A stretch of DNA of 64,000 nt from Candidatus Poribacteria bacterium. Lineage in GTDB: Bacteria > Poribacteria > WGA-4E > WGA-3G. Each line of letters opens with the position of its first letter. Positions within the stretch are counted from its first letter, which is position 1. The notes beneath the pieces were generated by a model. That model saw only the letters and a list, made by a program, of their open reading frames with translations, was not told where the DNA came from and ran no database searches. Positions 5,525 through 57,688 of this stretch are shown piece after piece. Both the position numbers and the translations under genes were made by a program. The stretch lies in contig JAPPES010000005.1 of NCBI GenBank assembly GCA_028824125.1, positions 6,228-70,227 of the forward strand. Reading direction: 5' to 3'.

Positions 5525-5579
5525 AGTCCGTGCTTCCACCTTCAAAAAGGATTACAGATTGTGCTGAATAAATAAGATT

Positions 5580-34300: not shown

Positions 34301-35984
34301 TATGCCTGATGGTGGCGATTTCATCCTGATCTTGCGTAGACATGACAACTATGAAGGTCATAGAGCCAACCAGGATGGTGGCAAAGGTGTTGCTGAAACC
34401 TCAATATTTGGCCAGAACCCGAGAGATATTGACAAAATTATTGATATTGCTGGGTCCCATAGAAGTTTGGATGCTACCAACTATCCAGGAACAGCACCGG
34501 CAGATCTCAATAAGACGACTCTCTGGCCATTGGTCAACTTCAACAACGATATGAGACCACATTATGGACATGGTGACCTGAATCACAGACGTCATAATCG
34601 TCTTGAAGTAAACCGTGTGCGTTATCGTCAGCACGTTAAGACAACCGCGAAAAATGATCACGATGGTGGAACTCCCGGTAACCGTGCCGGCACTGGTGTC
34701 ACACACAAGAACGAAGATGTTGGGCACTACGCTTTCCGTGATGCCTATTATACTGGTCTCGGTTATAAGCGCACAGCCAGAATAACAGGTGCCCATAACG
34801 GAACACCTGGATACAACGGTAATGCCGTTGGGAATACTGGTGTTGTTAAAGGCAATGCTACGAGTGCTACGGTAACCATCAGTGAGATCATGGCTTCCAC
34901 AGGGCGTGATGCCGATAATCCTGTTTTACCGCAATGGATTGAACTCTACAACAGTTCACCGACCGACGCGGTTAATCTCAGAAATTGGAAACTGCGCTTT
35001 GAAATGCTTAACGCTGATGGTAGTCCGATGGATAGTCTGATGACCCTTGACTTAAATAAAGGGCGCGTCAAAACTATCGCCCCACAACAGACAGTGCTGA
35101 TTGTGGCGGGTAATGCCAGACAAGCGAATAGTGATGCAGCCGCAGGAACGGATGTCTTCAACGAAAATCGTGTCTTCAATGTCTTCAGAGATTATGGCGG
35201 TGCGAATAAATTCGGTGCGAACACACGTTATATGTTCTTCAATCCGAAAGCATTCCACATGGCACTCTTGGACAAAGATAACAAAGTCGTTGACGCTGTT
35301 GGGAACCTTGACGGGGATGCTCGGACAAGTGATACGAATACATGGGATTACCCCGAAGGCATAGCCGAAGACGGTAACCGAACGTCCTTCATCCGTGTCT
35401 ATGATGCCGGTAAAGCACGCATGGCCGTGAACACAGATGCAAGTAATGTGATGCCTGTCTTCGGAACCGGCGACGGGAAAAAGACAGACAACGATGGCAT
35501 TGATGCCAAGTGGGCTTGGATTCCTGCAGTGAATACTGAAAGGCAATTCAAAATCACTATCCGTTCCACATGGTACGGCGTTGAAGATGATTACGGCACA
35601 CCGAACAACCGTCCTGGTATGGTGTTACCGGTTGAGTTGTCGTTCTTCCGTCCGACACTTGAAGATGGCGTAGTAACTGTCCGTTGGACCACCGAATCCG
35701 AACTTGACAACGCTGGATTTAATATCCTCCGTAGTGAAACTCGAGACGGTGAGTACACGCAGGTGAACGCTGAGATGATCCAAGGTGCTGGCACCACAGG
35801 TGAAAGAAGTACCTATAAATGGGTTGATCCGACCGCTAAACCGGGCGTTGTTTACTACTATCAAATTGAAGATGTGTCCTTTGCTGGTGAGCGTCAAGCC
35901 CTTGCCATAACCAAGTTGAAAGGCTTAATCTCAGCAGAGAACAAACTTACAACAACGTGGAGTGAGCTAAAAGCTTCACAATAA
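31335..35984 (+). CDS. Very large secreted protein with Ig-like and lamin-tail domains
   Basis: A 1549-aa exported protein, signal peptide residues 1-27 (ALLLLVAVPVMA). About 285-610 contains SbsA-type Ig-like repeats marked by FVLTFNEAITGLAASDLTI, LSITFSEALG and VMDAAGNP. Three lamin-tail-like domains follow, each opening with an ISE or INE strand: RISEVMWASD (about 695), VIINEVANRSD (about 862) and TISEIMASTGRD (about 1182), with the repeated WIEL(R/Y)N and VNLRNW motifs. A fibronectin-like segment starts LPVELSFFRPTLEDG near 1430. The protein ends ENKLTTTWSELKASQ. Such architecture suggests a cell-surface or matrix protein. A tandem promoter array precedes it, implying high expression. Confidence 0.85.
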   Translation: MLLSNRLTFCITSLMALLLLVAVPVMAHTPGAGHDAAHDGDNPATTDVVETDFAEEVNHTHTAAPTISSITAVDTKGSPPGTTTPTADTVVSNVNGMKIVLVGGTDLTAAGRLLVAVADADADGNTPHTLDAGIFQLKITFAQDVYPVAAAGEAANAAPTVAQTDVFTGVTIVAAAADAAGVNIGSFFEVGTLTRVETKEADTIANTPAEYSKREFLVPVTISETNARTLTQMRLPVSFWVNVAADQVFSLTALDGPNIVQGRGNAEHTTPNPFMLNGYVAPDPPGPTPRETDAPTVTIAKPATVTAPGSTANLNFVLTFNEAITGLAASDLTIDGGTFVSATANDANTVWTVAVDPTGDPANTEVTVTLNDNSVSDESGNRYMQPTAGPDSARYDTVNPTIHPTATGTITGGAGTLSITFSEALGSGAGGFMNADIDRVNSTVLLTNTEPTMAATQPTDGTQVWELMVTNVTGSQAIVVIQAGSVMDAAGNPLLADTIVTWTRTPDPDPESDVPVVTVALAGGMTYIDSVSGGNVMITATDNVAVTNAVMDAEITVTGGSKGMISNDMIMVTPNVGATTVTVAVAAGAAMDAAGNGSAAVSMEFNVGPIFTIPANTILVVTKTAGMTHNYVSDQPRLPINQNPPTPAPDIETAVWSNMPDLEVLFSFDRGGNGGTLNLTEAAGQEELGQSRDGGNGQHQSVRISEVMWASDLSMRGAQNDAEAAEQWIEITNNTGAEVSIFLFARTGRDSAINVDDVEDRVGNAYDGSPGSAGWTVPGQNGNSYTGVDFVSMHRRWDGAHSRGYVNGTSKGHWSASDQVYLTLATGNPNDGNLYNYKGSPGRPHSIGLPKPSTRAGVTQVPSSPVIINEVANRSDSVRQYEWIELRNVTDSEVNLRNWMISMAFKDGNTPVDRPLVQFPNNDRAKIAPQGVILLLASDPRHDDEHPIAVGYNVDGGPPSDQVDGLGLIVEGSNRQPPRQKVINFENGGMPDGGDFILILRRHDNYEGHRANQDGGKGVAETSIFGQNPRDIDKIIDIAGSHRSLDATNYPGTAPADLNKTTLWPLVNFNNDMRPHYGHGDLNHRRHNRLEVNRVRYRQHVKTTAKNDHDGGTPGNRAGTGVTHKNEDVGHYAFRDAYYTGLGYKRTARITGAHNGTPGYNGNAVGNTGVVKGNATSATVTISEIMASTGRDADNPVLPQWIELYNSSPTDAVNLRNWKLRFEMLNADGSPMDSLMTLDLNKGRVKTIAPQQTVLIVAGNARQANSDAAAGTDVFNENRVFNVFRDYGGANKFGANTRYMFFNPKAFHMALLDKDNKVVDAVGNLDGDARTSDTNTWDYPEGIAEDGNRTSFIRVYDAGKARMAVNTDASNVMPVFGTGDGKKTDNDGIDAKWAWIPAVNTERQFKITIRSTWYGVEDDYGTPNNRPGMVLPVELSFFRPTLEDGVVTVRWTTESELDNAGFNILRSETRDGEYTQVNAEMIQGAGTTGERSTYKWVDPTAKPGVVYYYQIEDVSFAGERQALAITKLKGLISAENKLTTTWSELKASQ

Positions 35985-38380: not shown

Positions 38381-41300
38381 ATGAATAACACATTTTTCAC
38401 ACGAAAGATCGTGCTCGGCATGCTAATAGCACTTGTGTTGGCGTTTGGTGTGCAGAGCGTGGCAGACGCGGCGTTGACTGCAAGAAAAATCAGTGGTGAT
38501 TTAGAAGTCAAACCTTTGGTTACGAACCAAACGTTTGAGTTCTCTTTTTCTATAAGCGGTGTTCCGGGAAGCAGACCTGATGTTGGTGGGAGTCCCGATG
38601 AGAATCGAGAAAGCATAACGATAACGCCAGCTGGCGGAAGGATCGTTGAGGTAAGAATGGGGAGCAGGACCTACTCCTCACTAAACATAGAGGCTGGAAA
38701 TTCTTTCACGTTAGAAGAATGGCATACCGATAGTGGCAATGGTAGCACCGCGGGTGATGATGAGGCTCTTACTACTGGTACTGAAGGTGATCTTACGAGC
38801 GGCACCGTATATGTGAAGGTTGAACCTAGAACTACGGCGGCAGCAGAGCTAACTGTGGGAGAGAAAACAATTACGGTAGTCGATGCTGAAACTGATGGGG
38901 ACACTACTGACACTGCTTTTACGTCATTGGTATTCACGGCTTACGCTGTGCGACTGCCTGGGGACGTTCAAAGTCTCAGGTTTGCCGCAACCACTACGAC
39001 TCCTGAGGTAAACCCTACAACCAAAACAGTCTATCCACCATTCGATCCGAGCGACCCCTTATATGATGAGTTAGTTTCAGTCACGGTAGCGGATGTTGCC
39101 ACTACTACCAATAGCTCGTGGGCACTTGTTGATTTTGAAGTTGTTGAGGGAGACGGATTTGTTTATCAGGATCTGAACGGTGATTCACAACCTGACACGC
39201 CTGCGGACAGAAACACACAAACCACCACCACATTAACTAATGGTGACAGTGTGGCAATGGTGAGGCTGCGGCTGAATGGCGGAACCAACAAAATTCGGGC
39301 ACAAATTAAGAACACAGATCATACCTACACTGTTACTTATCTCTTTCAAGGTACGGGAACAACGCCGACACCAGGGCAGCCCCCACCAGGGGCAAGTCTT
39401 ACCGTAAGCGCACCTACCAGTGGCACTGTTGGTCAGACGATTACTGTTACAGCGAGTACCTCTGATAGGAGTGGTGACCGGGAGGTGACATTCACCAGTA
39501 ATCGGGGCGGCACTTTTTCACCAGCTTCTGGCTCTGTACAAACGGCAAATAACGGCGTTGCAACGATACGGTTCACACTGCCGAGTACTACTGGACAGGT
39601 AACCATCAACGCAAGCGCGACCGGCTATACAACACTTCCAGCTATGGTGGATGTAACTTCAGGCCTCGGTAGTCTCACAGTAAGTACACCGAGACCTTTC
39701 TCTGGAAATGCGGGTGAAACGGTAAACATAGTTGTTGGGACAGGAACAGCTGGCGTATCGATTACACTGAGTGGTGTCGGTTTCACGTCTGCCACAGGTA
39801 CAACGGTTGCCAGCGGTTTTGCAACCATACCTATTGTCTTACCGACTACTGCTGGCAATTATCAACTCTACGCAAATGCTAATGGATATGAACGTGAACT
39901 CATTGTCGTGATTGTTTCAGGTACGGCACCTACGAATGTCCCAGTGCGGTTAACGATTCCCAGCGGGACAAATCCAGCACAAACCGTGACTATCGGAAGT
40001 AATGCGACATTGCGGGTACTTGTGACAAATACAAATACGAATCAGCCACAATCGGGTGTGGCAGTCACGTTCCGCAATAGCAGTGGGAATGACTTGGCTA
40101 CAGTAAACACCGGCACTAACGGTGAAGCCACGCATCAATTGACTGTATCACAGCTGCAACCACAGGTGATAAGTGCGGTTATTACGGATACTAACGTAGA
40201 CACAAGCGGTACAACGCCTGTAACCTTTACGATCACAGGAAGAGCGCAACAGCCAACGGAATCCACGCGGCTCAGTATTATCCGCCCCGTTGACGGTAGC
40301 GGCCAAATGGTGATCAGTGGCGGCCCCGGTGCAACGTATCCACTAACAATCCTATTCAACAATGAAAATAACACACCGGCAGTCAACCAGGTTGTCACAC
40401 TTACTGTTAGGAACGCTGCGCAAGTCGTTCAGTCTACGACTGTGCTAATAACAGATAACACGGGTAGGGCTACCACACCGGATACGTTCAGGCTACCGAT
40501 AGCAGCTGGACAGTATACCATCACCGCTGTTTCAGGGACTCAAACCCGTTCCGTTACAGTTACGGTGGTGGCAGTTAGGCTCGTGAAAAACACAAGCAAT
40601 AGTATTTCTGGTGATAACCAGGAAGGCGATCGCGGCGAAGTGCTTGACGATCCGTTTGTCGTCAAAGTCGTTCAGGATATCACTACTACTGAAACACCTG
40701 TGCAAGGTGTAGCGGTGACGTTTACGGTGGTAGATGGTAACGGTGAACTTTCTGCTGCCAGCAATGCCACAAGTGGCGATTCTTCATTGGTTGTCCGAAG
40801 TGATACTAACGGAGATGTGCGTGCGTATCTTGTCTTAGACGAAGACGATGAAGATAATAGGGTTCGCGCAAGCCTCGGCATCACGAATGTGGCAGATGTC
40901 TTCTTTGACGCTACGGGTGCCGTTGTACCAGACGACATAGAAATCGTTTCTGGTGATAATCAACGAGTTATACCGAACCGTTATACGGATCCAATGGTCG
41001 TCCGGGTTACAGATGAGGATGGCGCTGATCTTCAAGGCGCAACCGTTACGTTCAGTTTGAGAGGCGGTAGCGGTACACTGACGCCACGTAGCGCAACAAC
41101 AGATCGCAACGGTGAAGCGGAGGCAGAATTATTGCCACGTGAGGCCGGTACCTACTTCGTTACTGCGAGTGTTCAGGGCGTGCCATCTGTTCGCTTTACC
41201 ATTAATGTCGGTGATTTAGCGGATTCCATAGAAATCGTTTCCGGTAATAACCAACGTGGTACCCCGGGTACCGTACTGGATGATCCGTTCGTTGTGGAAG

Positions 41301-42940
41301 TGCTTGATGACGATGACGACGTTGTTTCAGGCGTTACCGTAACGTTTAGCGTAACAGCAGGGGGCGGCAGCCTCTCGGCAACATCGGTCACGACGAATTC
41401 CAGAGGACGCGCACAGACAACTCTCACCCTCGGTGATGACCTGGGTCGTAACACTGTTCGTGCAAGTGTCTCAGGTGTTTCAACGACAGTCACCTTTACG
41501 GCAACTGCGGGCCCCACAGAACCCGATGTCCGCCTGCCAGCAACACAGCGAGCGCATACCTATTGGGTAAACACAGATAGTGGCACGCTCCACCGTCTCG
41601 TGGGCAGCAGTGTTGAAAACATTGCGTCCGGTGTCCAAAATGTGGTCAGTCTTGCTGTAACGAACAATCGGCTCTACTGGGTTGAGAAGACAAGCGGTAA
41701 TAGCGGTAGAATTCGCCGGTCAGACCTGAATGGTAGTAACGTTCAGTTGGTTCGGGATCTCACGGCTGCCCCCGCAGGGATTGCTGTGGACACCAACAAT
41801 AGTAAGATTTACCTGACCAACGGTTTTGGTAAAGTGCAGTCCATCAACTTTAATGGTTCAGGGTATGAACCGGACCTCATTACCGGTTTGAACAACCCGA
41901 AAGACATTGCGGTTGGCTCTGGTAGAGTCTATTGGATAACAGGTGATAACACTGTCCACTCAGCGAACGTTGATGGTTCAGGTGTTACACGGATCGCTAC
42001 TGGATATAGGTATGATACATTGCATAGTATCGCTGTCGGTGGAGGTAAAGTCTTCTGGACAGAAGAAACCAACGACTCCGCTGGTTATATCCACAGTGCC
42101 AACCTTGACGGCAGTAATGTGCAAGAACTGGCATCCTTATTAGCTGCACCGGAAGGGATATCCGTTGATACCACTGCGAACAAGCTGTATTTCACAAACA
42201 GTCGTGGCAGAATCATGCAGAGCGACCTCAGCGGTGGTTCTATCAAGATTGTCGTTGCAGATTTGACCGCACCGGGTGATATCTCCGTGCCATCTGGCAC
42301 GACGCGTCCACCTGGCACCTTCTCGCGGTATGATGTTAACCGTGACGGCGTAGTCAATAACACAGATGCCGCATTGGTCGCAGATGCGCTTGGGGAAAGC
42401 CCACCGAGTAATCCTCGTCTGGATGTCAACGGCGACGGTTCAGTGAATTTCCTTGATCTGCTCCTTGTGTTTGACAACCGTGAAAATGTCAACGCTGCCC
42501 CAACAGTGGCAGTTGCGAAACTTCCAAAGGTGTCACGTGAGGAAATACAGAAGCAAATTAACCTGTTGATCGCAACAGATAACCACTCGCTTACGGCACA
42601 GCACACGCTGGCATACCTGCAGCGTTTGTTAGAAGTCGTAACACCAGAAAAGACCCGTTTGCTCGCGAACTATCCGAATCCGTTCAATCCGGAGACATGG
42701 ATACCGTATCAGTTGGCAACGGATTCTAATGTGCAGATTACGATTTACGACGCAGCTGGAAGCATGGTGCGCACCTTGATGCTTGGACATCAGGCTGAAG
42801 GCTACTACACAGACCGGAGCCGCGCAGCCTATTGGGATGGGCGCAATGCTATCGGTGAACGTGTGGCAAGTGGTGTTTATTTCTACACACTCACCACAGA
42901 TACGTTTTCTGCTACACGCAAAATGTTGATCCTGAAATAG
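38381..42940 (+). CDS. Very large secreted protein: Big_1 domains, propeller, dockerin, sorting-type C-terminus
   Basis: A 1519-aa exported protein with signal peptide 1-29. Repeated bacterial Ig-like (Big_1/invasin) modules recur from about 340 to 1040, each with a GVAVTF or VTFSV strand and a TTLTL or AEAELLP ending; the units opening IEIVSGDNQR and IEIVSGNNQRGTPG are near-duplicates. About 1060-1320 has repeated YWV/YWIT-NLDGS units, like a YWTD-type beta-propeller. About 1335-1395 has a dockerin-like pair of calcium loops, DVNRDGVVNNTD and DVNGDGSVNFLD. The last 90 residues are an NYPNPFNPETWIPY module ending GVYFYTLTTD, typical of type IX-like or FlgD-Ig tails. Probably an adhesive surface or matrix scaffold. 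Confidence 0.88.
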   Translation: MNNTFFTRKIVLGMLIALVLAFGVQSVADAALTARKISGDLEVKPLVTNQTFEFSFSISGVPGSRPDVGGSPDENRESITITPAGGRIVEVRMGSRTYSSLNIEAGNSFTLEEWHTDSGNGSTAGDDEALTTGTEGDLTSGTVYVKVEPRTTAAAELTVGEKTITVVDAETDGDTTDTAFTSLVFTAYAVRLPGDVQSLRFAATTTTPEVNPTTKTVYPPFDPSDPLYDELVSVTVADVATTTNSSWALVDFEVVEGDGFVYQDLNGDSQPDTPADRNTQTTTTLTNGDSVAMVRLRLNGGTNKIRAQIKNTDHTYTVTYLFQGTGTTPTPGQPPPGASLTVSAPTSGTVGQTITVTASTSDRSGDREVTFTSNRGGTFSPASGSVQTANNGVATIRFTLPSTTGQVTINASATGYTTLPAMVDVTSGLGSLTVSTPRPFSGNAGETVNIVVGTGTAGVSITLSGVGFTSATGTTVASGFATIPIVLPTTAGNYQLYANANGYERELIVVIVSGTAPTNVPVRLTIPSGTNPAQTVTIGSNATLRVLVTNTNTNQPQSGVAVTFRNSSGNDLATVNTGTNGEATHQLTVSQLQPQVISAVITDTNVDTSGTTPVTFTITGRAQQPTESTRLSIIRPVDGSGQMVISGGPGATYPLTILFNNENNTPAVNQVVTLTVRNAAQVVQSTTVLITDNTGRATTPDTFRLPIAAGQYTITAVSGTQTRSVTVTVVAVRLVKNTSNSISGDNQEGDRGEVLDDPFVVKVVQDITTTETPVQGVAVTFTVVDGNGELSAASNATSGDSSLVVRSDTNGDVRAYLVLDEDDEDNRVRASLGITNVADVFFDATGAVVPDDIEIVSGDNQRVIPNRYTDPMVVRVTDEDGADLQGATVTFSLRGGSGTLTPRSATTDRNGEAEAELLPREAGTYFVTASVQGVPSVRFTINVGDLADSIEIVSGNNQRGTPGTVLDDPFVVEVLDDDDDVVSGVTVTFSVTAGGGSLSATSVTTNSRGRAQTTLTLGDDLGRNTVRASVSGVSTTVTFTATAGPTEPDVRLPATQRAHTYWVNTDSGTLHRLVGSSVENIASGVQNVVSLAVTNNRLYWVEKTSGNSGRIRRSDLNGSNVQLVRDLTAAPAGIAVDTNNSKIYLTNGFGKVQSINFNGSGYEPDLITGLNNPKDIAVGSGRVYWITGDNTVHSANVDGSGVTRIATGYRYDTLHSIAVGGGKVFWTEETNDSAGYIHSANLDGSNVQELASLLAAPEGISVDTTANKLYFTNSRGRIMQSDLSGGSIKIVVADLTAPGDISVPSGTTRPPGTFSRYDVNRDGVVNNTDAALVADALGESPPSNPRLDVNGDGSVNFLDLLLVFDNRENVNAAPTVAVAKLPKVSREEIQKQINLLIATDNHSLTAQHTLAYLQRLLEVVTPEKTRLLANYPNPFNPETWIPYQLATDSNVQITIYDAAGSMVRTLMLGHQAEGYYTDRSRAAYWDGRNAIGERVASGVYFYTLTTDTFSATRKMLILK

Positions 42941-44216: not shown

Positions 44217-44538
44217 GCACCATAGGCGTCAATTTAAGAAAACATAAGAATTATTATGCTCACTTTTCGATACACCCGGTTATTGGGTTTACCCTCTTTT
44301 TAGTCCCGTAGGGACGCAATGTTTATAGATAACGTTAAAAACCTTCACTTTAGTCCCGTAGGGACGATATGTTTATCTTTCTATGCCGTTCCTACGGAAC
44401 TCAAGAGGGGAGGGGCAACATTTTTCTATAAACATTGCGTCCCCGCCAAATACCAAACGCGTATTTGGCGTTGATTCACGGGACTAAAGATACCGCATAA
44501 TACAAATCAAAATTCTTAAATTGACGCCTATGGTTTGC
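44217..44538. repeat. TIR element (type A) with REP-like quartet, one unit interrupted
   Basis: TIR CATAGGCGTCAATTTAAG (44221-44238) and inverse CTTAAATTGACGCCTATG (44514-44531). REP-like units forward at 44296-44328 and 44348-44376, reverse at 44385-44407 (GTTCC variant). A fourth reverse unit is split: its first half ends at about 44444 and its second half resumes as CGGGACTAAAG at 44479. The 34-nt insert is a GCCAAATAC/GTATTTGGC hairpin followed by GTTGATT. There is no coding frame. Confidence 0.8.
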
Positions 44539-44600
44539 GTTTATGTATGCACAACCTAAAAGTTTATGCTACAGATTTGGTGGGCAAAGGGAACAGTATC

Positions 44601-45977
44601 ATGGCTTCACTCAAAATAGACTTTGACAAAGGCACCCTTATCCTACAGAACGTCCCAGAGGCACTCCAATCACAGTTACCAGACATCCGCTGGGATGAAC
44701 GCACCTTGACTTTCCGTGCGCCCGCCTACCGTTACCGTCATATTGTCTCACAGCTGCGCGCGCACAACATCCCATACACGGATACAGCACGACAATTCAC
44801 TGTCAAACCTTTTACCAATGAAAAAAACGTATCACCCTATCCCTATCAATCTGAAGCAATTGATGCATGGCATGCTAACAACAAGCGCGGCGTTATCAGC
44901 CTGCCGACAGGTGCAGGTAAGACATTCATCGCGGTTCTGCTCATCGCGGATACGCAACGGCCAACGCTCGTGCATGTGCCGACAATTGATTTGATGCACC
45001 AATGGTACGAAGTGCTAAAAGAACATTTTGGAGAGGAGGTTGGGCTTTACGGTGGTGGACAACACGAATTACAAGACCTCACCGTGACAACATATCAATC
45101 CGCAGTCATGCATGCACCTCACTACGGGAATCGGTTCGGGTTCGCCATTTTTGACGAATGCCACCACCTACCGGGTGACCAATATCAATACGCGGCAATC
45201 AGTAGTATTGCCCCTTTCCGTTTAGGGTTGACAGCTACGCCCGAGCGCGTTGATGGAAAAGAGAGTAGGCTTTATGCGCTTGTGGGTGAATGTTGTTATG
45301 AAGCACAGGTGCAGGAACTTTCTGGGAAAACGCTCTCCGAATATCGTGTCGTTACGATTGCTGTTGATATGGAAGACACGGAACGGATTCAGTATGAAGA
45401 AGCACGCCGAACTTATTTGAACTTCCTTAAGAAAGCACAAATCAACATGGGATCGCCTCGCGGATGGCAAACATTTCTGTGGAAATCCTCACAATCTGAA
45501 GAGGGACGGACTGCTTTCAAAGCGTATCTCACACAGAAGCAGCTCAGTTTCGCCTCCGCCGCAAAACAGGAGTGGGTGTGGAAACTGATTCAACGGCATC
45601 ATGGCGATCGTATCCTTATTTTTACACAAGATAATGACACGGCATATCAGATAGGGACGCGTTTTTTTCTGCCTGTGCTAACGCATCAAACAAAACTGAA
45701 AGAGCGGAACGCCTTTTTGAACGGATTTCGGGATGGCACATTTTCTGTCCTTGTTACCTCCAAAGTGTTGAATGAGGGCGTAGATGTGCCGGAAGCGAAT
45801 GTCGCTATTATTGTTTCAGGGAGTGGGAGTGTGCGTGAGCATGTGCAGCGGTTAGGACGTATCCTCCGCAAACGTGAGGGCAAACAAGCTGTGCTTTACG
45901 AACTTATTTCTAAACAGACCAGCGAACAGTTTGTTAACAAACGGCGAAGACAACACCACGCGTACCAAACAAGGTAG
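44601..45977 (+). CDS. XPB-family SF2 DNA helicase
   Basis: A 458-aa helicase of the XPB/Ssl2 branch of superfamily 2. An N-terminal damage-recognition-like domain (about 1-70) precedes the helicase motifs: Walker A LPTGAGKT, DECHH in place of DEAH, motif III GLTATPERVDG, and motif VI QRLGRILRKREGKQ. XPB unwinds DNA in nucleotide-excision repair (family knowledge). ATG 44601 is chosen because AAAGG precedes it and an XPB-like start is obtained; the frame extends up to 44535. The next gene is a Bax1-type nuclease, the known XPB partner, 53 nt downstream. Confidence 0.88.
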   Translation: MASLKIDFDKGTLILQNVPEALQSQLPDIRWDERTLTFRAPAYRYRHIVSQLRAHNIPYTDTARQFTVKPFTNEKNVSPYPYQSEAIDAWHANNKRGVISLPTGAGKTFIAVLLIADTQRPTLVHVPTIDLMHQWYEVLKEHFGEEVGLYGGGQHELQDLTVTTYQSAVMHAPHYGNRFGFAIFDECHHLPGDQYQYAAISSIAPFRLGLTATPERVDGKESRLYALVGECCYEAQVQELSGKTLSEYRVVTIAVDMEDTERIQYEEARRTYLNFLKKAQINMGSPRGWQTFLWKSSQSEEGRTAFKAYLTQKQLSFASAAKQEWVWKLIQRHHGDRILIFTQDNDTAYQIGTRFFLPVLTHQTKLKERNAFLNGFRDGTFSVLVTSKVLNEGVDVPEANVAIIVSGSGSVREHVQRLGRILRKREGKQAVLYELISKQTSEQFVNKRRRQHHAYQTR

Positions 45978-46030
45978 CAGATACATTATCGGGGTTAAAA
46001 ACCCCTCCTACAGAATAGAATTAGAAGGCT

Positions 46031-47278
46031 ATGCTTACCAAAGACCTACTCCGATACAAAATTCAGAACGGACAGATCTATCCTCAATTTGTAAAACCTA
46101 CTGATAGTCAATTGTTGGCAATTGCCGAACAATTAATTTCTGTCTTTGAAGAATCTACGGATAAAGCACGGTCAACATTATTAGAGGCGAGTAAACATGT
46201 TATTGATAGCACACCAGGCACACCTTTAGTCAAGCGTGGACTTGAAAAACTGCTATTAGATAGAACCGAGTTTGACACTGCACCTAACGAAGAACTGATT
46301 GCGTTTCGGCAAAAACTTTTCACAGAGACGAGTCGCCTGCTTTCACAAGAACAGTTGCAGGATTATGCGGACTACCAGCAGAAAGTCGAACAGATAGTTC
46401 GAAACGAAGGGCTACCAGAGGGAACAGCGTTAGGGGATAGACTCTATGCAGATCTGCCAAGTTGTCAGCCAATTTTGTCTTTCAAAACACTTTCTGCTGA
46501 GCATTTACTGCATCGTTATAACACTGCACAGGTACAAGGCTTGCTTTTGCATTGTAATTCCCTCACTTTAAATCTCACCGATTCCATGACAGCCGAACTG
46601 CGTCAGCTGTTCAAATATCTAAGATTTAACCAACTCCTCTCCACAATTCGGAAAGAGAGAGTAGAAAACGAGGATCTGTTTCAGATTACAGTAGACGGAC
46701 CGCTCAACCTGTTTTACAAAACGAAGCGATACGGCATGAATCTGGCGAACTTTTTTGTTGCCGTGTTGCATCAACCGAAATGGGAACTCACGGCGGAGGT
46801 TCAGTTTCGAAATAAAAGACGTTCTCGGTTATATCTCAATGAATCGTGTGGGATAAAACCGATTTCACAACAATTTCTTGCCTATATTCCTGAAGATATT
46901 CAACTCTTTCAAGAGATGCTCCACAACAAAACAGCTGATTGGCAGATTCATCCAGGTAGCCAGTTTCTACCTTTACCGGGAGATTTCTACTGTTTTCCAG
47001 ATTATCAATTGATGCATACCAGCGGTGTAGAAGTAGCGATTGAATTATTTCATCCGTGGCACCAAGGTCATCTGCTTGCGCGTCTCAACACACTTGCCGA
47101 ACAGACCGATACTCGCCTTATCCTTGGTGTTTCAAAGGAATTGGAGAAAAAACCGATAATCGCGGAGGCATTGGAAGCTTCTACGTATTTCTCAAAGTTC
47201 GGTTTTACTTTCCGCGATGTGCCAACGATGGGGACATTGCTTCCTATTTTGAAATCACTTGTTGACATTGACCGTTAA
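46031..47278 (+). CDS. Bax1-type (DUF790) nuclease partner of XPB
   Basis: A 415-aa protein of the DUF790 family, which in archaea is Bax1, an endonuclease that binds XPB and makes an incision at a DNA bubble. Recognisable features are the N-terminal LLRYKIQNGQIYPQFV, the ARSTLLEASKHV segment and the C-terminal nuclease-like stretch EVAIELFHPWHQGHLLARL. Its placement directly after the XPB gene on the same strand makes a helicase-nuclease operon. The gap holds a short GGGGTTAAAAACCCC palindrome. Confidence 0.85.
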   Translation: MLTKDLLRYKIQNGQIYPQFVKPTDSQLLAIAEQLISVFEESTDKARSTLLEASKHVIDSTPGTPLVKRGLEKLLLDRTEFDTAPNEELIAFRQKLFTETSRLLSQEQLQDYADYQQKVEQIVRNEGLPEGTALGDRLYADLPSCQPILSFKTLSAEHLLHRYNTAQVQGLLLHCNSLTLNLTDSMTAELRQLFKYLRFNQLLSTIRKERVENEDLFQITVDGPLNLFYKTKRYGMNLANFFVAVLHQPKWELTAEVQFRNKRRSRLYLNESCGIKPISQQFLAYIPEDIQLFQEMLHNKTADWQIHPGSQFLPLPGDFYCFPDYQLMHTSGVEVAIELFHPWHQGHLLARLNTLAEQTDTRLILGVSKELEKKPIIAEALEASTYFSKFGFTFRDVPTMGTLLPILKSLVDIDR

Positions 47279-50780: not shown

Positions 50781-52169
50781 ATGAATAAAACACAGGGTGA
50801 TTTAACTCAAGGTAATCTTCTCCGCCATCTGTTACAACTTGCAGTGCCGATAACGTTTGGTTATATTCTTCAAGACGCGTTCAATATCGTTGATATGATT
50901 TTTGTTGGCAGATTAGGACCTGCTGCAATCGCAGCCGTTGGTGTGAGCGGTAATTTGCTCCGGTTAATTGCAGTTTTTTCTCTCGGTATTTCAACAGGCG
51001 CGGGGATTATGGTGGCGCAGTATCTTGGCGCAAGAAATCACGCCCAAGCCGGATACGTAGCGATGCAGGCTATCCTACTTGCTTTTTTCTTTGCTATCGG
51101 CATCGGTATTGTTGGCTACCCATTAGCAGAATTTGGTTTGCGCGCTGTCCGAACAATAGACTCAGATGTGATACAGTTCGGCATAACTTACATGCAAATA
51201 ATACTTGTCGGCATCAGCACAATGTTTTTGTCAATGACGCTCAGCTCAATCTTCCGGGCAGGCGGCGATGCCGTCACGCCGATGGTTGTGTTAATTTTAT
51301 CCACACTGATTAACATTGTACTTGACCCATTGTTAATCTTTGGACTTTGGAAATTCCCGAAATTAGGTGTAGCAGGTTCAGCGTATGCAACGCTCATCGG
51401 CAGAGGGGTCGGTGTCATTATTCTACTTTTTCTATGTTTCAGTGGACGCGCGCCAATATCGTTACGAAACGTCCAATTTCGCGCAGACCTCGTAGAAATG
51501 CTTGACATTTTAAGGTTAGGCGTTTATAGTTCTATGCAAGGGTTCTGGCGGCATTTATCTCGTCTCGGTTTCCTTTGGGTGTTAGGTCCTTACGGTAAAA
51601 ATGTAGTTGCTGCCTATACGGTTTGCATGCGCCTCCGAATATTCGTTATGAACCCCGGTTTTGGCATTGCGAATGCTGTTGCACCTGTGGTCGGGCAGAA
51701 TTTAGGCGCGAACCAGATAGAAAGAGCAGAAAAATCAACCCGGATGGGAAATATATTAGGCACAACGGTCATGGCGGGTATTGGCGCACTATTTCTCATC
51801 TTTCCGCAGATATTTATTCAAATTTTCTCTAATGACGCAGAAGTTATAAAAATTGGATCCGTTTACCTACAGTTTCTGTCGCTCACATTTGGATTTATAG
51901 CGTTTTCTTTAGTGTTAGGCAAGGCACTTAACGGTGCTGGTGATACCTTTTCACCGATGATTATCACGCTCGCTGCCCAGATGGGAGTAGGCTTGGGACT
52001 TGTTATTCTATTATCACACTTTATCGGATTAAAAGGGGTTTGGATCGGAATTGCTCTTTCAAATGTGGTACAAGGTGCCGCCATGTGGCTTTGGTACCGC
52101 ACCGGCAGATGGAAAACAATAAAGATTATTAAAAATGGTAGTAAAAGTCCTACCAGAAAGGTAGTTTGA
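50781..52169 (+). CDS. MATE-family multidrug/metabolite exporter
   Basis: A 462-aa inner-membrane antiporter with about 12 helices. Conserved elements are VPITFGYILQDAFNIVDMIFVGRLG near the N-terminus, MVAQYLGARNH, and FRAGGDAVTP then the repeated NLGANQIERAEKSTR in the second half. It exports cationic compounds or metabolites with Na+ or H+ exchange. It is coupled to the next gene: one base separates the TGA stop from the ATG of the sulfurtransferase. Confidence 0.92.
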   Translation: MNKTQGDLTQGNLLRHLLQLAVPITFGYILQDAFNIVDMIFVGRLGPAAIAAVGVSGNLLRLIAVFSLGISTGAGIMVAQYLGARNHAQAGYVAMQAILLAFFFAIGIGIVGYPLAEFGLRAVRTIDSDVIQFGITYMQIILVGISTMFLSMTLSSIFRAGGDAVTPMVVLILSTLINIVLDPLLIFGLWKFPKLGVAGSAYATLIGRGVGVIILLFLCFSGRAPISLRNVQFRADLVEMLDILRLGVYSSMQGFWRHLSRLGFLWVLGPYGKNVVAAYTVCMRLRIFVMNPGFGIANAVAPVVGQNLGANQIERAEKSTRMGNILGTTVMAGIGALFLIFPQIFIQIFSNDAEVIKIGSVYLQFLSLTFGFIAFSLVLGKALNGAGDTFSPMIITLAAQMGVGLGLVILLSHFIGLKGVWIGIALSNVVQGAAMWLWYRTGRWKTIKIIKNGSKSPTRKVV

Positions 52170-52170
52170 A

Positions 52171-53007
52171 ATGGCGTACAAAGGTTATGCAAATCCTCAA
52201 CTCGTAATTTCAGTTGAGGAATTGAAAAGCAATCTTGATGATGAATCGTATTGTATCGTTGATACGCGTCCAACGCATGAATATATAAGCGGACATATTC
52301 CAGGGGCGCTTCACCTTGATCTGTTCGGCTTGAGCCTCATCAACACTCGGAAAGAGATGTTTGACACTTTTATGTGGATGATAGCGTACCTGTTCCAACA
52401 AAGAGGTCTTGATCCAGCAAAAACAATTATATGGTATGAAGATATTTCAGGGACGAAGGCATCTCGCGGTCTCTGGTTTTGCGAGTATTTGGGACATTCC
52501 AAAACCCGTGTGTTAGATGGTGGGTATAAAGCATGGATAGCAGCAGGCGGACCGGTCAGTACAGAAGGCGTAGTACCCCCCAACGTATCGGAATTTCCGA
52601 TAGAAGCAAAGCATGAAACGCACATGGATGCGGATATGATTCATGCCTCACTAAACCAAGAAGATTTCATTCCTTTGGACACACGCACAGATGATGAACA
52701 CTACGGTAGAGTCGCCCGCGCAGAACGCGCAGGTGCAATTCCAAGTTCAATTCATATAGAATGGGTCAACAACCTTGATGAAACTGGTGCATTCAAACCT
52801 GCTGATAAACTCCGAGAGATGTATGCTGCAGCAGGCATCACACCGGAAAAGCAGGTAATGTGTTACTGACAGGGTGGGTACCGTTCTTCCCAAACCTATT
52901 TGGCGTTGCGGCTTATCGGTTATACGAGGGTAAGCAACTACATCGGGTCTTGGAAAGAATGGGGAGACCGGCTGGATTTGCCGGTTGAAATTCCTGAGGA
53001 AGGCTAA
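52171..53007 (+). CDS. Selenocysteine rhodanese-type sulfurtransferase
   Basis: A two-domain rhodanese (thiosulfate/3-mercaptopyruvate sulfurtransferase type), 278 aa when the in-frame TGA at 52867-52869 is read as Sec at residue 233. Domain 1 (about 1-135) starts VEELKSNLDDESYCIVDTRP and has an inactive-type loop. Domain 2 ends PEKQVMCY-U-QGGYRSSQTY, then LALRLIGY and GSWKEWG, terminating with TAA at 53005. In ordinary rhodaneses the residue before QGG is the catalytic Cys, so UGA falls exactly on the nucleophile. The 46 codons after it are conserved and in frame. The ATG lies one base after the MATE stop, with AAAGG upstream. Confidence 0.85.
52867..52912 (+). promoter_or_regulatory. UGA Sec codon and possible SECIS hairpin of the rhodanese
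   Basis: A 5-bp perfect stem CCAAA/TTTGG with loop CCTA (52890-52903) begins 20 nt after the UGA. Its distance suits bacterial SECIS elements, but the loop lacks the usual conserved G, so the exact structure is unproven. GGG/CCC (52877-52879 with 52889-52891) is an alternative pairing. Confidence 0.4.
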
Positions 53008-53765: not shown

Positions 53766-54968
53766 TCAGTCCAAAAATTGGGCGTCCACCGTCTCTCCTG
53801 CATGTAAGGTCGCACCGGATGGAATCGTAATCAATCCATTTGCTAATACAAGGGAATGTAGAATACCAGAGCCTTGCGGTCCAGTAGTTTTGGCAATGTA
53901 TTGCCCATCCTGTTCCGTAAGAATCGCACGCATATAATTCACGCGCCCATCTTTGTTCGTAACGTCTGCTGCTAAGGTAGCTTTGAAGGTAGGACGTAAT
54001 AGGTCGGTGTGACCAGCCATTTTCAGGAGAGCAGGACGTACGAAAAGCTCAAACACAACAAGCGAAGACACAGGATTACCGGGTAGTCCAAAAATCGGCT
54101 TTCCATCTATAATACCGTAAGCCTGCGGTTTGCCCGGCTTCATTGCCACACGCCAAAAATTCATTTTGCCCAATTTTGTTAGGACGTTTTTCACCACATC
54201 GTGTTCACCGACCGAAACACCGCCACTCGTAATCAGCGCATCTGCTTTCGCAAGGGATTCACGAAAGATACGTTCAGTTTCAGCTTCATCGTCAGGCGCA
54301 ATACCCATATCAATTGGGATGCCGCCAGCGTTTTGAACTTGTGCGGACATACCGTATCGATTACTATCCCGAATTTTTCCCGGCATCAGCGGTTTACCGA
54401 GTGGCGTAAGTTCATCACCTGTGGAGACAACGGCTACTGTTGGTTTCCGAAATACTGTTACTTCAGCACAATTAAGTGAAGCAAGCATTGATACTTCTGG
54501 CGGACGAAGCAGTTTCCCTGGAGACATTACGCAATCGCCTTGCTTAACACTCTCACCAGTGAAGCGGACATTTTCGTTTTCGTCAACGTTTTCAAAGATT
54601 TTGACCTTATCACTGACAAGGTCGGTTACTTCCTGCATAACGACAGCATCTGCACCATTAGGCATCATCGCCCCCGTCATAATCCGTGCTGCTTGTCCAG
54701 AGGAAACATGTTTTTCGGGTGCATATCCTGCAGCGATTGTCTCAACAACCGAAAGCACGGCAGGATTCTCTTTAGATGTGTCCTTTACGTCTGTTGAACG
54801 GACTGCAAAACCATCCATCGCTGAATTGTCAAAAGGTGGGATATTTTCAGCAGCATGCAGTGTTTCGGCGAGAACATAACCTGCACAGTCAAGAATTTCT
54901 CGCTTTTCTGTCGGTAAAACAGGGATGGTATCTAACATCTGTTGCCGTGCTTCTTCAACACTTAACAT
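53766..54968 (-). CDS. moeA: Molybdopterin molybdotransferase
   Basis: Inserts molybdate into adenylated molybdopterin in the last step of Mo-cofactor synthesis, cytosolic, 400 aa. Family marks: PPFDNSAMDGFAVR near residue 45, RIMTGAMMPNGAD, the MoaB-like domain VAVVSTGDEL and TSGGVSVGEHD, then GKPIFGLPGNPVSS and a C-terminal beta domain. The formate dehydrogenase in this window needs this cofactor. No other moa or moe gene is present nearby. Confidence 0.94.
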   Translation of the reverse strand: MLSVEEARQQMLDTIPVLPTEKREILDCAGYVLAETLHAAENIPPFDNSAMDGFAVRSTDVKDTSKENPAVLSVVETIAAGYAPEKHVSSGQAARIMTGAMMPNGADAVVMQEVTDLVSDKVKIFENVDENENVRFTGESVKQGDCVMSPGKLLRPPEVSMLASLNCAEVTVFRKPTVAVVSTGDELTPLGKPLMPGKIRDSNRYGMSAQVQNAGGIPIDMGIAPDDEAETERIFRESLAKADALITSGGVSVGEHDVVKNVLTKLGKMNFWRVAMKPGKPQAYGIIDGKPIFGLPGNPVSSLVVFELFVRPALLKMAGHTDLLRPTFKATLAADVTNKDGRVNYMRAILTEQDGQYIAKTTGPQGSGILHSLVLANGLITIPSGATLHAGETVDAQFLD

Positions 54969-55027
54969 TTAATTTGCTCCAGTTGAGTTTTATTTCATAC
55001 ATTCACAGGTAATTTAACCGATTCTTT

Positions 55028-55522
55028 TCATTTCGCATGTCCGATGAGAAGCACTGCAGCAGGTAAAGATATTTCCGCAGATTTGCCATAAGCCCAATCA
55101 ATGCTTTTAATATCAGCATCTGTTTCTAACTTATGATAGGGCAAATTCCACGCTTTAAGTGTCGGTTCAAGGAAAGCAGCAACAGAGTCAACCCACTTTC
55201 CATCAGCGTCACGGTTGTGATACCCGCGATATCCAATAATAATGACAACAGGGATTCTCATGTTAAAAACTGTGCCACGGAATGCGTCACCGGATTCCAA
55301 GAAACCCGTATTTTGAATGATAATCACAGGCTTTTTGCCGCCAACGAACAATCCTGCTGCAATAGCGAATGCCTCACCTTCACGAGTTACCGTGATGACC
55401 TCAATCTCCGGTTCTTCTCGTAAAAGTTCATAAATCTTCGCGCTGCCATTGTCTGGTACACCAATGGCGTGGGTGATATTCTGTTTTTTTAACGCATCTA
55501 CTATTTTTTGTGCTGATGCCAC
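55028..55522 (-). CDS. Orphan TPP-enzyme alpha subunit, sulfopyruvate decarboxylase-like
   Basis: A 164-aa protein equal to the pyrimidine-binding (alpha) half of a split ThDP enzyme, most like ComD (sulfopyruvate decarboxylase alpha) or the N-part of phosphonopyruvate decarboxylase. Motifs: IGVPDNGSAKIYELL, the catalytic-type Glu in TREGEAFAIAAGL, IIIQNTGFLESGDAFRGT. It starts at GTG with GAGGG just upstream. A functional enzyme would need a ComE-like beta subunit, which does not follow; the next gene is acetyl-CoA synthetase. Substrate assignment is tentative. Confidence 0.7.
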   Translation of the reverse strand: MASAQKIVDALKKQNITHAIGVPDNGSAKIYELLREEPEIEVITVTREGEAFAIAAGLFVGGKKPVIIIQNTGFLESGDAFRGTVFNMRIPVVIIIGYRGYHNRDADGKWVDSVAAFLEPTLKAWNLPYHKLETDADIKSIDWAYGKSAEISLPAAVLLIGHAK

Positions 55523-55580
55523 AAGTGTCCCTCATTCATGCAATTGGGCAGGCACAGTGACCTGTCCTTATGAAATTATT

Positions 55581-55695
55581 GGGACACTTTGATAAACCTG
55601 TTTTGGAAACATAACGTACAACAGAAGTTGTAGCACAAACTTTTAGTTTGTGCATATTTGACGCAAACTAAAAGTTTGCGCTACAGAAGTGTCCC
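55581..55695. repeat. Nested inverted repeats between the TPP-subunit and acs genes
   Basis: Outer GGGACACTT (55581-55589) and AAGTGTCCC (55687-55695) enclose a palindrome with arms TGTAGC(A/G)CAAACTTTTAG and CTAAAAGTTTGCGCTACA. A third CAAGTGTCCC lies at 55522-55532. Confidence 0.6.
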
Positions 55696-55744
55696 ATTAA
55701 TTATAGATTTTATTATAATTCACATTTCGGACGATAAATCAACT

Positions 55745-57688
55745 TTACTGTCTACCTTCAACCAATGCGTCAACCACTGTTGGATCAGCAAGGGTTGAAG
55801 TGTCACCGAGATCAGATATATCGCCTTCTGCTATTTTACGGAGAATGCGCCGCATGATTTTACCCGATCGAGTCTTCGGTAAAGCAGGCGTAAACTGTAT
55901 CTTATCCGGTGTTGCGATGGGTCCAATATGTTGTCGCACCGCCTGTTTGATACCTGTTGCCACATCATCTGACGCAGATTCACCCGTCATAAGCGTCACA
56001 TAAGCATAGATACCTTGCCCCTTAATATCGTGTGGATATCCGACAACTGCAGCTTCTGCAACAGCATCATGTTGCCCGATTGCACCTTCAACCTCTGCCG
56101 TGCCCAATCTATGTCCAGAGACATTCAGCACATCGTCTACACGACCTGTAATCCAGTAATATCCATCTTCATCACGCAGCACGCCATCACCTGTCATGTA
56201 ATAGCCGGGGAACCTACTAAAATAGACATCAATGAAACGTTCATGGTCACCATACACTGTCCGCATGATGCCGGGCCACGCTGTTTTAATGCAGAGATAA
56301 CCAGTCGCAGGATTGCCTTCCACTTCGTTTCCTTCTTCATCCAAGATCACGGGTTCAATACCGAAGAATGGGAACGTTGCAGAACCGGGTTTCAGGGGCG
56401 TTACAGCGGGTAATGGCGTAATCAAAATTCCACCTGTTTCGGTCTGCCACCATGTATCAACAATCGGACACCGTTTGTCGCCAACAATATTATAATACCA
56501 CAACCATTCCGGTTCTTTAATCGGTTCACCGACTGTGCCAAGCAATCGGAGCGTAGACCTATCATATTTCTCTACCCATGTATCCCCCTCCTTCATTAAG
56601 GCACGCAGGGCAGTGGGAGCAGTATAAAATAGATTGATTTTATGTTTTTCAACTACTTGCCAAAATCGTCCAAAATCGGGGTAGTTCGGTACACCTTCAA
56701 ACATGACGGTAATTGCACGATTTGCAAGTGGTCCGTAGATAATATAAGAATGTCCGGTAATCCAGCCTATATCAGCAGTGCACCAATATACATCACCTTC
56801 ATGGTAGTCAAAAATCTGTTGATGCGTATAAGAGGTATACACCAGATAACCGCCAGTAGTATGTAAAACGCCTTTCGGTTTTCCTGTTGAACCGGAGGTA
56901 TAAAGAATAAAAAGCGGGTCTTCAGCATTCATCACTTCAGGTTCACATTCGGCATCGGCTGTTTCCATCGCTTCATGCCACCAAACATCGCGCGATGCGT
57001 CAAAATCAACCGCATCACCTGTACGTTGGACGACAACTACCTTTTCAATAGAGGGACAATCTGAAACTGCAGCATCGGCGTTTGCCTTCATTGGGATGTC
57101 ACTTCGGGCACCGCGCATTGCTGTGTCCTGTGTTATCAACAGTTTGCAAGCAGAATCATTAATCCTATCTCGCAGCGATTCCGCTGAAAACGCACCGAAA
57201 ACGATGGAATGAACCGCACCAATTCTGGCACATGCCAACATTGCAATTGCCAACTCTGGTACCATTTGCAAGTAGATACAGACACGGTCGCCTTTTTCAA
57301 TACCTTGCGCTTTCAACACATTTGCAAACTTTTTGACCTCTGCAAGCAGTTCATTAAAACTATATGTCTTATCTTCGGAAGGGTCGTTGCCTTCCCAGAT
57401 AACCGCTGTTTCATCGCCGTGTCCTGCTTCCACGTGTCGATCAAGGCAGTTATAACAGGCGTTCAGCGTGCCGCCTTCAAACCATTTTATCTGTGCTTTG
57501 ACAAAATCGTAATCCCGAACTGTATCCCATTTTTGATACCACGTCAACCGTTCAGCAATTGTTGCCCAAAAGCCTTCCGGGTCCTGAATTGATTCTGCAT
57601 ATCGCTCCTGATACGCTTCTAAGCTGTTGACGTGAGCATCACTGATCGGATAGGCAGTTTCCATCGGTGGAAAAATATTGTTAGCCAT
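55745..57688 (-). CDS. acs: Acetyl-CoA synthetase
   Basis: Converts acetate, ATP and CoA to acetyl-CoA, cytosolic, 647 aa, normal for the family. The ATP loop [20 protein letters not shown] (about 265-284), [10 protein letters not shown] (about 410), the ATP/hinge region [15 protein letters not shown], and the C-terminal [14 protein letters not shown] with its regulatory Lys are present. SD AGGAGATG is upstream. Together with formate dehydrogenase it suggests one- and two-carbon acid use. Confidence 0.97.

Follow-up and report, generated by a model that had tools for sequence, protein, structure and literature searches.

A probable selenocysteine-containing rhodanese of Candidatus Poribacteria with a candidate split SECIS element reaching about 100 nt beyond its UGA codon

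Selenocysteine (Sec)-containing rhodaneses of the COG2897 type have been described from the Sargasso Sea in 2005 (PMC1088965) and from GOS in 2008 (PMC2398784), and they are listed in the table of a 2022 review (PMC9312934). The table of a 2026 review includes a Sec-rhodanese form 4 with the motif UxxG (PMC13188914), which, judging from a shared source reference in the accessible part of that review, should be the same COG2897 family. As to the RNA signal, bacterial SECIS elements are described as lying near the UGA codon (PMC10778597, PMC4607533, PMC12013277); the Sargasso Sea paper places them immediately downstream of UGA and reports SECIS-like downstream stem-loops for its new families (PMC1088965), and far-downstream SECIS elements are placed in eukaryotes (PMC8659212). 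The bacterial SECIS (bSECIS) model consists of a loop of 3–9 nt, a stem of 4–16 bp, a G in the first two loop positions, an energy of −7.5 or less and a spacing of 16–37 nt between UGA and apical loop, with a subset of genes that does not fit (PMC13188914). The locus described here shares with the COG2897/SseA-type Sec-rhodaneses the two domains, Sec at the active-site Cys and the many Cys homologues, but the accessible portions of their descriptions mention neither members from Poribacteria nor a split RNA signal in a distal position. In the openly licensed literature searched, no paper combined ‘Poribacteria’ and ‘selenoprotein’, and the portions of text available did not describe any bacterial SECIS that is distal or long-range. 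Measured against these sources, as far as their text is accessible, a Sec-rhodanese is known as a kind and the distal split RNA signal is the new part.

The gene lies in a window of 64,000 nt, the whole stretch of DNA that was analysed, taken from a genome of 5.59 Mb in 162 contigs (94% complete); the nearest relatives of the locus are labelled Candidatus Poribacteria. The features discussed are collected in Table 1. Pfam PF00581 matches the protein in two stretches (121 bits), and the AF2 model, based on 26 sequences and with Cys substituted for Sec, has a mean pLDDT of 93.6 and superposes in Foldseek on 1e0c, the RhdA of Azotobacter vinelandii, with TM values of 0.84/0.86. Domain 2 aligns across the UGA with solved two-domain sulfurtransferases, and U233 falls on the active-site-loop Cys of 1e0c and of the Thermus/Mycobacterium enzymes 1uar and 3aax, which we take to be the catalytic Cys. 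These proteins share with the rhodanese the fold, a similar length and the aligned active-site loop, but differ in having Cys for Sec and in an identity of only about 29–31%. Fold and active-site loop are therefore those of the thiosulfate/3-mercaptopyruvate sulfurtransferases; no NCBIfam equivalog is assigned, the best candidate, NF008557, scoring 97.9 bits against a cut-off of 250. Judged on domain and motif, the protein also has what defines form 4, namely a rhodanese domain, Sec and UxxG, here U-Q-G-G. The original prediction had put UGA at the catalytic Cys in the context CY-U-QGGYRSSQTY, and the translation and these alignments bear this out; the coding stretch that it described beyond the UGA does remain in frame to the TAA at 53005 but is 45 residues long, not 46. 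Cys231, two residues ahead of Sec233, is not general: other Sec members have Ser or Pro at this position, so no CxU redox pair is needed.

Table 1. Positions of the rhodanese gene, its candidate RNA element and other genes within the window.
Feature	Position	Strand	Remarks
Two-domain rhodanese (thiosulfate/mercaptopyruvate sulfurtransferase type)	52171–53007	+	278 residues if UGA is read through; ATG at 52171, TAA at 53005–53007, a single internal TGA; translation, Pfam, AF2, Foldseek
UGA codon 233 at the active-site Cys position, almost certainly read as selenocysteine	52867–52869	+	Translation, related loci, structure-family alignment
Helix P1, 5' strand	52881–52890	+	Starts 11 nt after UGA; RNAalifold, pair counts, pairing probability
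Helix P1, 3' strand	52952–52962	+	One bulged base; RNAalifold, pair counts, pairing probability
Hairpin P3	52966–52986	+	7-bp stem 52966–52972/52980–52986, loop UGGAUUU 52973–52979; proposed SelB-binding SECIS hairpin
MATE efflux transporter	50781–52169	+	Directly upstream of the rhodanese; lineage-specific neighbour, probably outside rhodanese function
Sec-containing formate dehydrogenase alpha subunit	2828–5545	-	Proximal SECIS-type hairpin, loop 18 nt after UGA

The genome carries the complete set of genes for Sec insertion, each above its curated cut-off: selA (611 bits, cut-off 268), selB (349.8 bits, cut-off 242) adjoining selC (80.1 bits, cut-off 47), and selD (369 bits, cut-off 125). 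A lack of selB or selC, which would have spoken against the original prediction, is thus not seen. The selD gene (contig C40, 806–1732) itself has one internal in-frame TGA in the context CAGUASK and is probably a selenoprotein gene as well. The formate dehydrogenase (FDH) that had been invoked as independent support is real, its one TGA (4454–4456, minus strand) lying inside a TIGR01591 match that scores 756 bits against a cut-off of 666.

The search for related loci found 113, of which 80 were kept, and in these 80 codon 233 is TGA in 72, TGC in eight and TAA or TAG in none. Among 84 Poribacteria genomes searched, 70 matched at 1e-40, and 66 of these have exactly one internal TGA and four have none. 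In a second phylum set, reached through a Latescibacteria genome, 21 of 64 genomes match at 1e-60, 19 of them with TGA; the other two are a full-length gene with TGC (L147) and a partial match whose codon is itself TGA (L155). The L155 match, in genome G123, comes in pieces and sits on a very long branch, with TGA, P1 and P3 intact, and its breakage may be a frameshift or an assembly fault. In a five-genome set around locus L082, the L082 gene was the sole match. The UGA is thus aligned with a conserved Cys, and the frame is conserved beyond it: across 61 sequences, pN/pS is 0.103 after the UGA (42 codons) and 0.266 before it (90 codons), so the downstream amino acids are more constrained than the upstream ones, and the degraded downstream sequence in homologues that would have counted against a selenoprotein is not seen. 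An in-frame stop alone could also point to a pseudogene or an assembly error; this explanation has next to no probability and is refuted by the single UGA within the match in 66 Poribacteria genomes and 19 of the second set, together with an intact downstream frame.

A selB match above cut-off is present in 75 of the 84 Poribacteria genomes; among the 66 that carry the UGA codon, 62 have one and the remaining four are 73–83% complete. Two of the Cys-form Poribacteria genomes have selB (G025, G026) and two do not (G024, 80% complete; G010, 61%). All ten other genomes tested have it, including the Cys-form genomes of L078, L087 and L147, whose Cys forms are thus not explained by loss of the Sec trait. 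In the tree, the Cys genes L077 and L081 branch within the Sec-bearing Poribacteria, where the Poribacteria group has a support of 90/99 and the inner group one of 87/84, and the Cys gene L078 stands beside the Sec gene L082 with a support of only 88/69; the direction of change between Sec and Cys depends on the root. The same data bear on the reading that no selenium is involved, the UGA being decoded by an ordinary near-cognate tRNA or serving as a regulated stop that gives a short and a long protein. Such a stop would yield a 232-residue product retaining domain 1, and the layout of P1 recalls viral stop-codon readthrough elements, in which sequence just after the stop pairs with distal sequence, although these differ from the rhodanese signal in that SelB and Sec are not involved. 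With UGA or UGC as the codon in 80 of 80 loci, no TAA or TAG, and the sel genes present, this reading is very improbable. The placement of Sec on the nucleophile, as predicted, draws support from the sel gene set, the Cys at this codon in relatives (the comparison of Cys and Sec homologues that had been proposed), the downstream constraint and the RNA element tied to the UGA described below. On this sequence evidence the rhodanese is almost certainly a selenoprotein with Sec at the nucleophile position, and sulfane-sulfur chemistry with Sec as carrier is predicted from its family membership.

A canonical proximal SECIS is not conserved in the rhodaneses, whether sought in single-sequence folds, with RNAalifold or with a coded version of the bSECIS model. 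At a spacing of 16–37 nt the coded model finds a hairpin in one of 83 Sec rhodaneses (4 of 332 synonymous shuffles, 0 of 9 Cys genes); at 95–110 nt it finds one in 82 of 83 (72 of 332 shuffles, 2 of 9 Cys genes), and in 81 of 83 Sec genes this distal hairpin is P3, with its loop at exactly 103 nt. The FDH of the window, as a positive control, passes the coded model with the loop GGTCT at 18 nt. SelD fails it, the coded model returning no hairpin, and the filter therefore overlooks some likely SECIS elements; by eye, a weak 5-bp hairpin with the loop CGGGT can be seen in selD 16 nt from the UGA, although it is absent from the lowest-energy fold predicted for the first 60 nt. The original prediction had looked for the SECIS just after the UGA, at 52867–52920, but no model hairpin lies there in this gene, the structured element extends to 52986, and the data point to a distal SECIS instead. 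A hairpin GGGCGG/CCGCUC directly after the UGA was dropped by eye, being too near the UGA and broken in several sequences.

Helices P1 and P3 were compared in 84 Sec and nine Cys genes, with 83 distinct Sec elements; alignment column n corresponds to window position 52851+n. With 29 diverse sequences, RNAalifold pairs columns 30–39 with 101–111 (P1) and columns 115–121 with 129–135 (P3). P1 is a 10-bp long-range helix whose 3' strand ends 3 nt ahead of P3, so the path from UGA to the P3 loop is about 21 nt through the fold (11 nt, a 3-nt linker and a 7-nt stem), as against 103 nt along the chain. P3 agrees with the bSECIS consensus and E. coli fdhF in its 7-bp stem, its 7-nt loop with G at positions 2–3 and an energy below −7.5, and the start of P1 matches the approximately 11 nt of mRNA in the ribosome tunnel given in the accessible text of PMC4513850. 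The element differs from them in the distance of the P3 loop, which falls within 16–37 nt only when counted through P1, in the additional long-range helix, and in the loop UGGAUYU, which also differs from the loop GGUCU of the FDH of the same genome.

The first seven pairs of P1 are all formed in 83 of 83 Sec elements and in two of nine Cys genes, and the inner six pairs of P3 in 81 of 83 and in none of nine, the Cys side being nine sequences only and mostly more distant ones. The weak spots are the last pair of P1 (39:101), broken in 14 of 83, and the P3 pair 115:135, broken in eight; locus L083 has only five of the seven P3 pairs and an alternative hairpin instead. Conservation of the protein alone might have produced the helices: the codons for YRSS, SWKEWG and GDR..LP dictate several of the pairs, and five of the ten P1 pairs and two of the seven P3 pairs are formed in all nine Cys genes as well, because the protein sequence fixes those codons. 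Against this stands the effect of protein-preserving synonymous shuffles. Mean pairing probability is 0.70 for P1 and 0.93 for P3 in 83 Sec genes, but only 0.031 and 0.035 in 498 such shuffles, and 0.036 and 0.004 in the nine Cys genes. Codon use points the same way. In 73 Sec loci, codon +35 is CTG in all 73, codon +34 is CGG in 68 and AGG in four, and codon +38 is CCG in 69, much less variable than the codons for these residues upstream, where the yardstick is only 1–4 columns per amino acid. As third-codon positions also covary, the by-product explanation is extremely improbable and largely refuted, and the RNA element is, as far as these comparisons of sequences go, one that accompanies the UGA codon and has mostly disappeared from the Cys genes.

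In 47 sequences, 97.7% of cells are paired, compared with 35–49% (maximum 49.2%) when the partners are slid, and double changes occupy 27 cells, where 500 shuffles average 5.4; double-change cells, percentage paired and covariation score each exceed all 500 shuffles. Two measures are not extreme, namely the number of pairs with a double change (4 against 2.5, as high in 50 of 500 shuffles) and that of further pair types (7 against 7.5, as high in 452 of 500). For P1, columns 33:108 are CG in 33 sequences, UA in 11 and UG in three, and columns 36:105 are UA in 42 and CG in five, none broken; for P3, columns 117:133 are CG in 39 and UA in eight, and columns 118:132 are CG in 43 and AU in three, with one broken. 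In a G-test with APC over all column pairs of 73 sequences, the first three ranks are P3 117:133, P1 33:108 and P1 36:105, each 100% paired. Under a tree-based null their E-values are 0.15, 0.4 and 3.45, and that of 118:132 (rank 8) is 11.6, so none of the four pairs reaches E 0.05 individually. Counting changes on the same branch among 2168 variable column pairs gives P3 117:133 rank 1 (p 2e-6) and 118:132 rank 2 (p 8e-6); P1 is weaker than P3, with 36:105 at rank 9 (p 9e-4) and 33:108 at p 0.02, and ranks 3 and 4 are held by the non-structure pairs 9:36 and 12:141. On these sequence comparisons, P1 and P3 both covary. An inner helix P2 (GUUGC/GCAAC within P1) is not claimed, as four of its five pairs fail in 5–13 of 83 sequences. 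P3 was also considered as a transcription terminator and rejected: it is absent from the terminator scan, has no T tail, lies inside the coding frame and is kept despite different neighbours.

Given a selenoprotein, insertion could still be driven by a weak or unusual proximal element, with P1 and P3 as accessories acting through a ribosome pause, mRNA stability or enhanced efficiency. Synonymous conservation does occur near the UGA too (codons -1, +4, +5, +12 and +13, partly outside P1/P3): codon -1 is TAC in 72 of 72 Sec loci with Tyr and codon +4 is TAC in 73 of 73; between these codons and the fixed ones at +34, +35 and +38, fixation returns to upstream levels, for example at +15, +17 and +25–26. 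Folds of the first 45 nt after the UGA are slightly more stable than those of synonymous shuffles, the mean z being −1.4 for Sec genes and −0.5 for Cys genes; this leaves room for a proximal element, and some bacterial SECIS elements do not fit the standard model, according to the accessible parts of PMC12013277 and PMC13188914. On the other side, RNAalifold on the first 60 nt gives just three pairs at −1.5 kcal/mol for 65 distinct Sec sequences (six pairs at −7.4 for eight Cys sequences), a proximal model hairpin is found in a single Sec element, and the P1 and P3 cores are complete in nearly all Sec genes and in few or none of the Cys genes. Overall, a proximal driver seems unlikely. The conserved TAC at 52864–52866 and GCG TTG at 52903–52908 (+12, +13), both outside P1/P3, could be part of the signal.

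The explanation preferred here, and judged probable, is a Sec233 sulfurtransferase whose UGA is served by a split SECIS made up of the long-range helix P1 and the distal SelB-binding hairpin P3. Sec233, the active-site nucleophile, would be inserted at the UGA by the SelA, SelB, SelC and SelD of the organism. P1 would begin about where the mRNA enters the ribosome and take the intervening sequence out of the path, bringing P3 to within some 21 nt of the UGA; SelB bound to P3 could then deliver Sec-tRNA while the UGA occupies the A site, with P1 bridging the distance, and the ribosome would afterwards melt both helices. SelB binding by P3, the supply of geometry by P1 and a Se–S intermediate for sulfane-sulfur transfer are what we infer from this arrangement. 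Besides Poribacteria, genomes labelled Latescibacterota, Gemmatimonadota and Nitrospinota conserve the element in their Sec-rhodanese genes. That it represents a bipartite SECIS class of its own in bacteria, with a SelB-binding hairpin in the coding sequence about 100 nt downstream and a long-range helix to the mRNA entry, and decaying on reversion from Sec to Cys, is put forward somewhat more cautiously, as reasonably likely. If true, a coding-sequence SECIS acting over 100 nt by means of a long-range helix would alter the geometry thought necessary for SelB delivery, the 16–37 nt rule of selenoprotein finders would be too narrow, and some genes missed by model-based searches could be accounted for. 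The UGA genes with the element and the Cys genes with a decaying one offer a natural test series.

The Cys-form gene L078 (4902–5732) has ten of ten P1 pairs, six of seven P3 pairs and a loop sequence known from Sec genes, and the folding algorithm gives it near nil pairing (P1 0.05, P3 0.00); on its sequence it appears to have changed from Sec to Cys and to retain a decaying remnant of the element. Rfam gave no match in the window above gathering scores. A covariance model of the element (R1), which relies in part on coding sequence and would overlook genes of unrelated families, found no further convincing site in the source genome: the rhodanese itself scores 170 bits, and the lesser matches are its Cys paralogue, whose homologous coding sequence gives 25.6 bits (E 0.002), and sites at 15.5 bits (E about 1) and 11.9 bits.

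The rhodanese had been proposed to be coupled to the MATE exporter gene. The two are indeed adjacent, one base separating the end of the MATE gene from the rhodanese ATG, but the arrangement does not extend beyond close relatives and is a lineage feature: MATE lies upstream in 48 of 81 loci, all from Poribacteria and sharing 73% or more protein identity with this rhodanese, and the 33 loci without it include two close relatives (L029, L034) that end at a contig end. The linkage was dropped as a functional clue. Downstream, on the other strand at 53766–57688, lie genes for MoeA, a small protein with a TPP-enzyme N domain that comes nearest to sulfopyruvate decarboxylase alpha, though with a score under the cut-off, and an acetyl-CoA synthetase, which occur together in several close relatives. 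At 44535–47278 a gene for an XPB-like helicase (XPB_DRD, ERCC3_RAD25_C) is directly followed by a DUF790 gene, a pairing known from archaeal repair (Bax1). The window also holds two giant open reading frames, one of 1549 aa (31335–35984) with lamin-tail and Ig-like domains and one of 1519 aa (38381–42940) with Ig-like, dockerin and C-terminal sorting domains.
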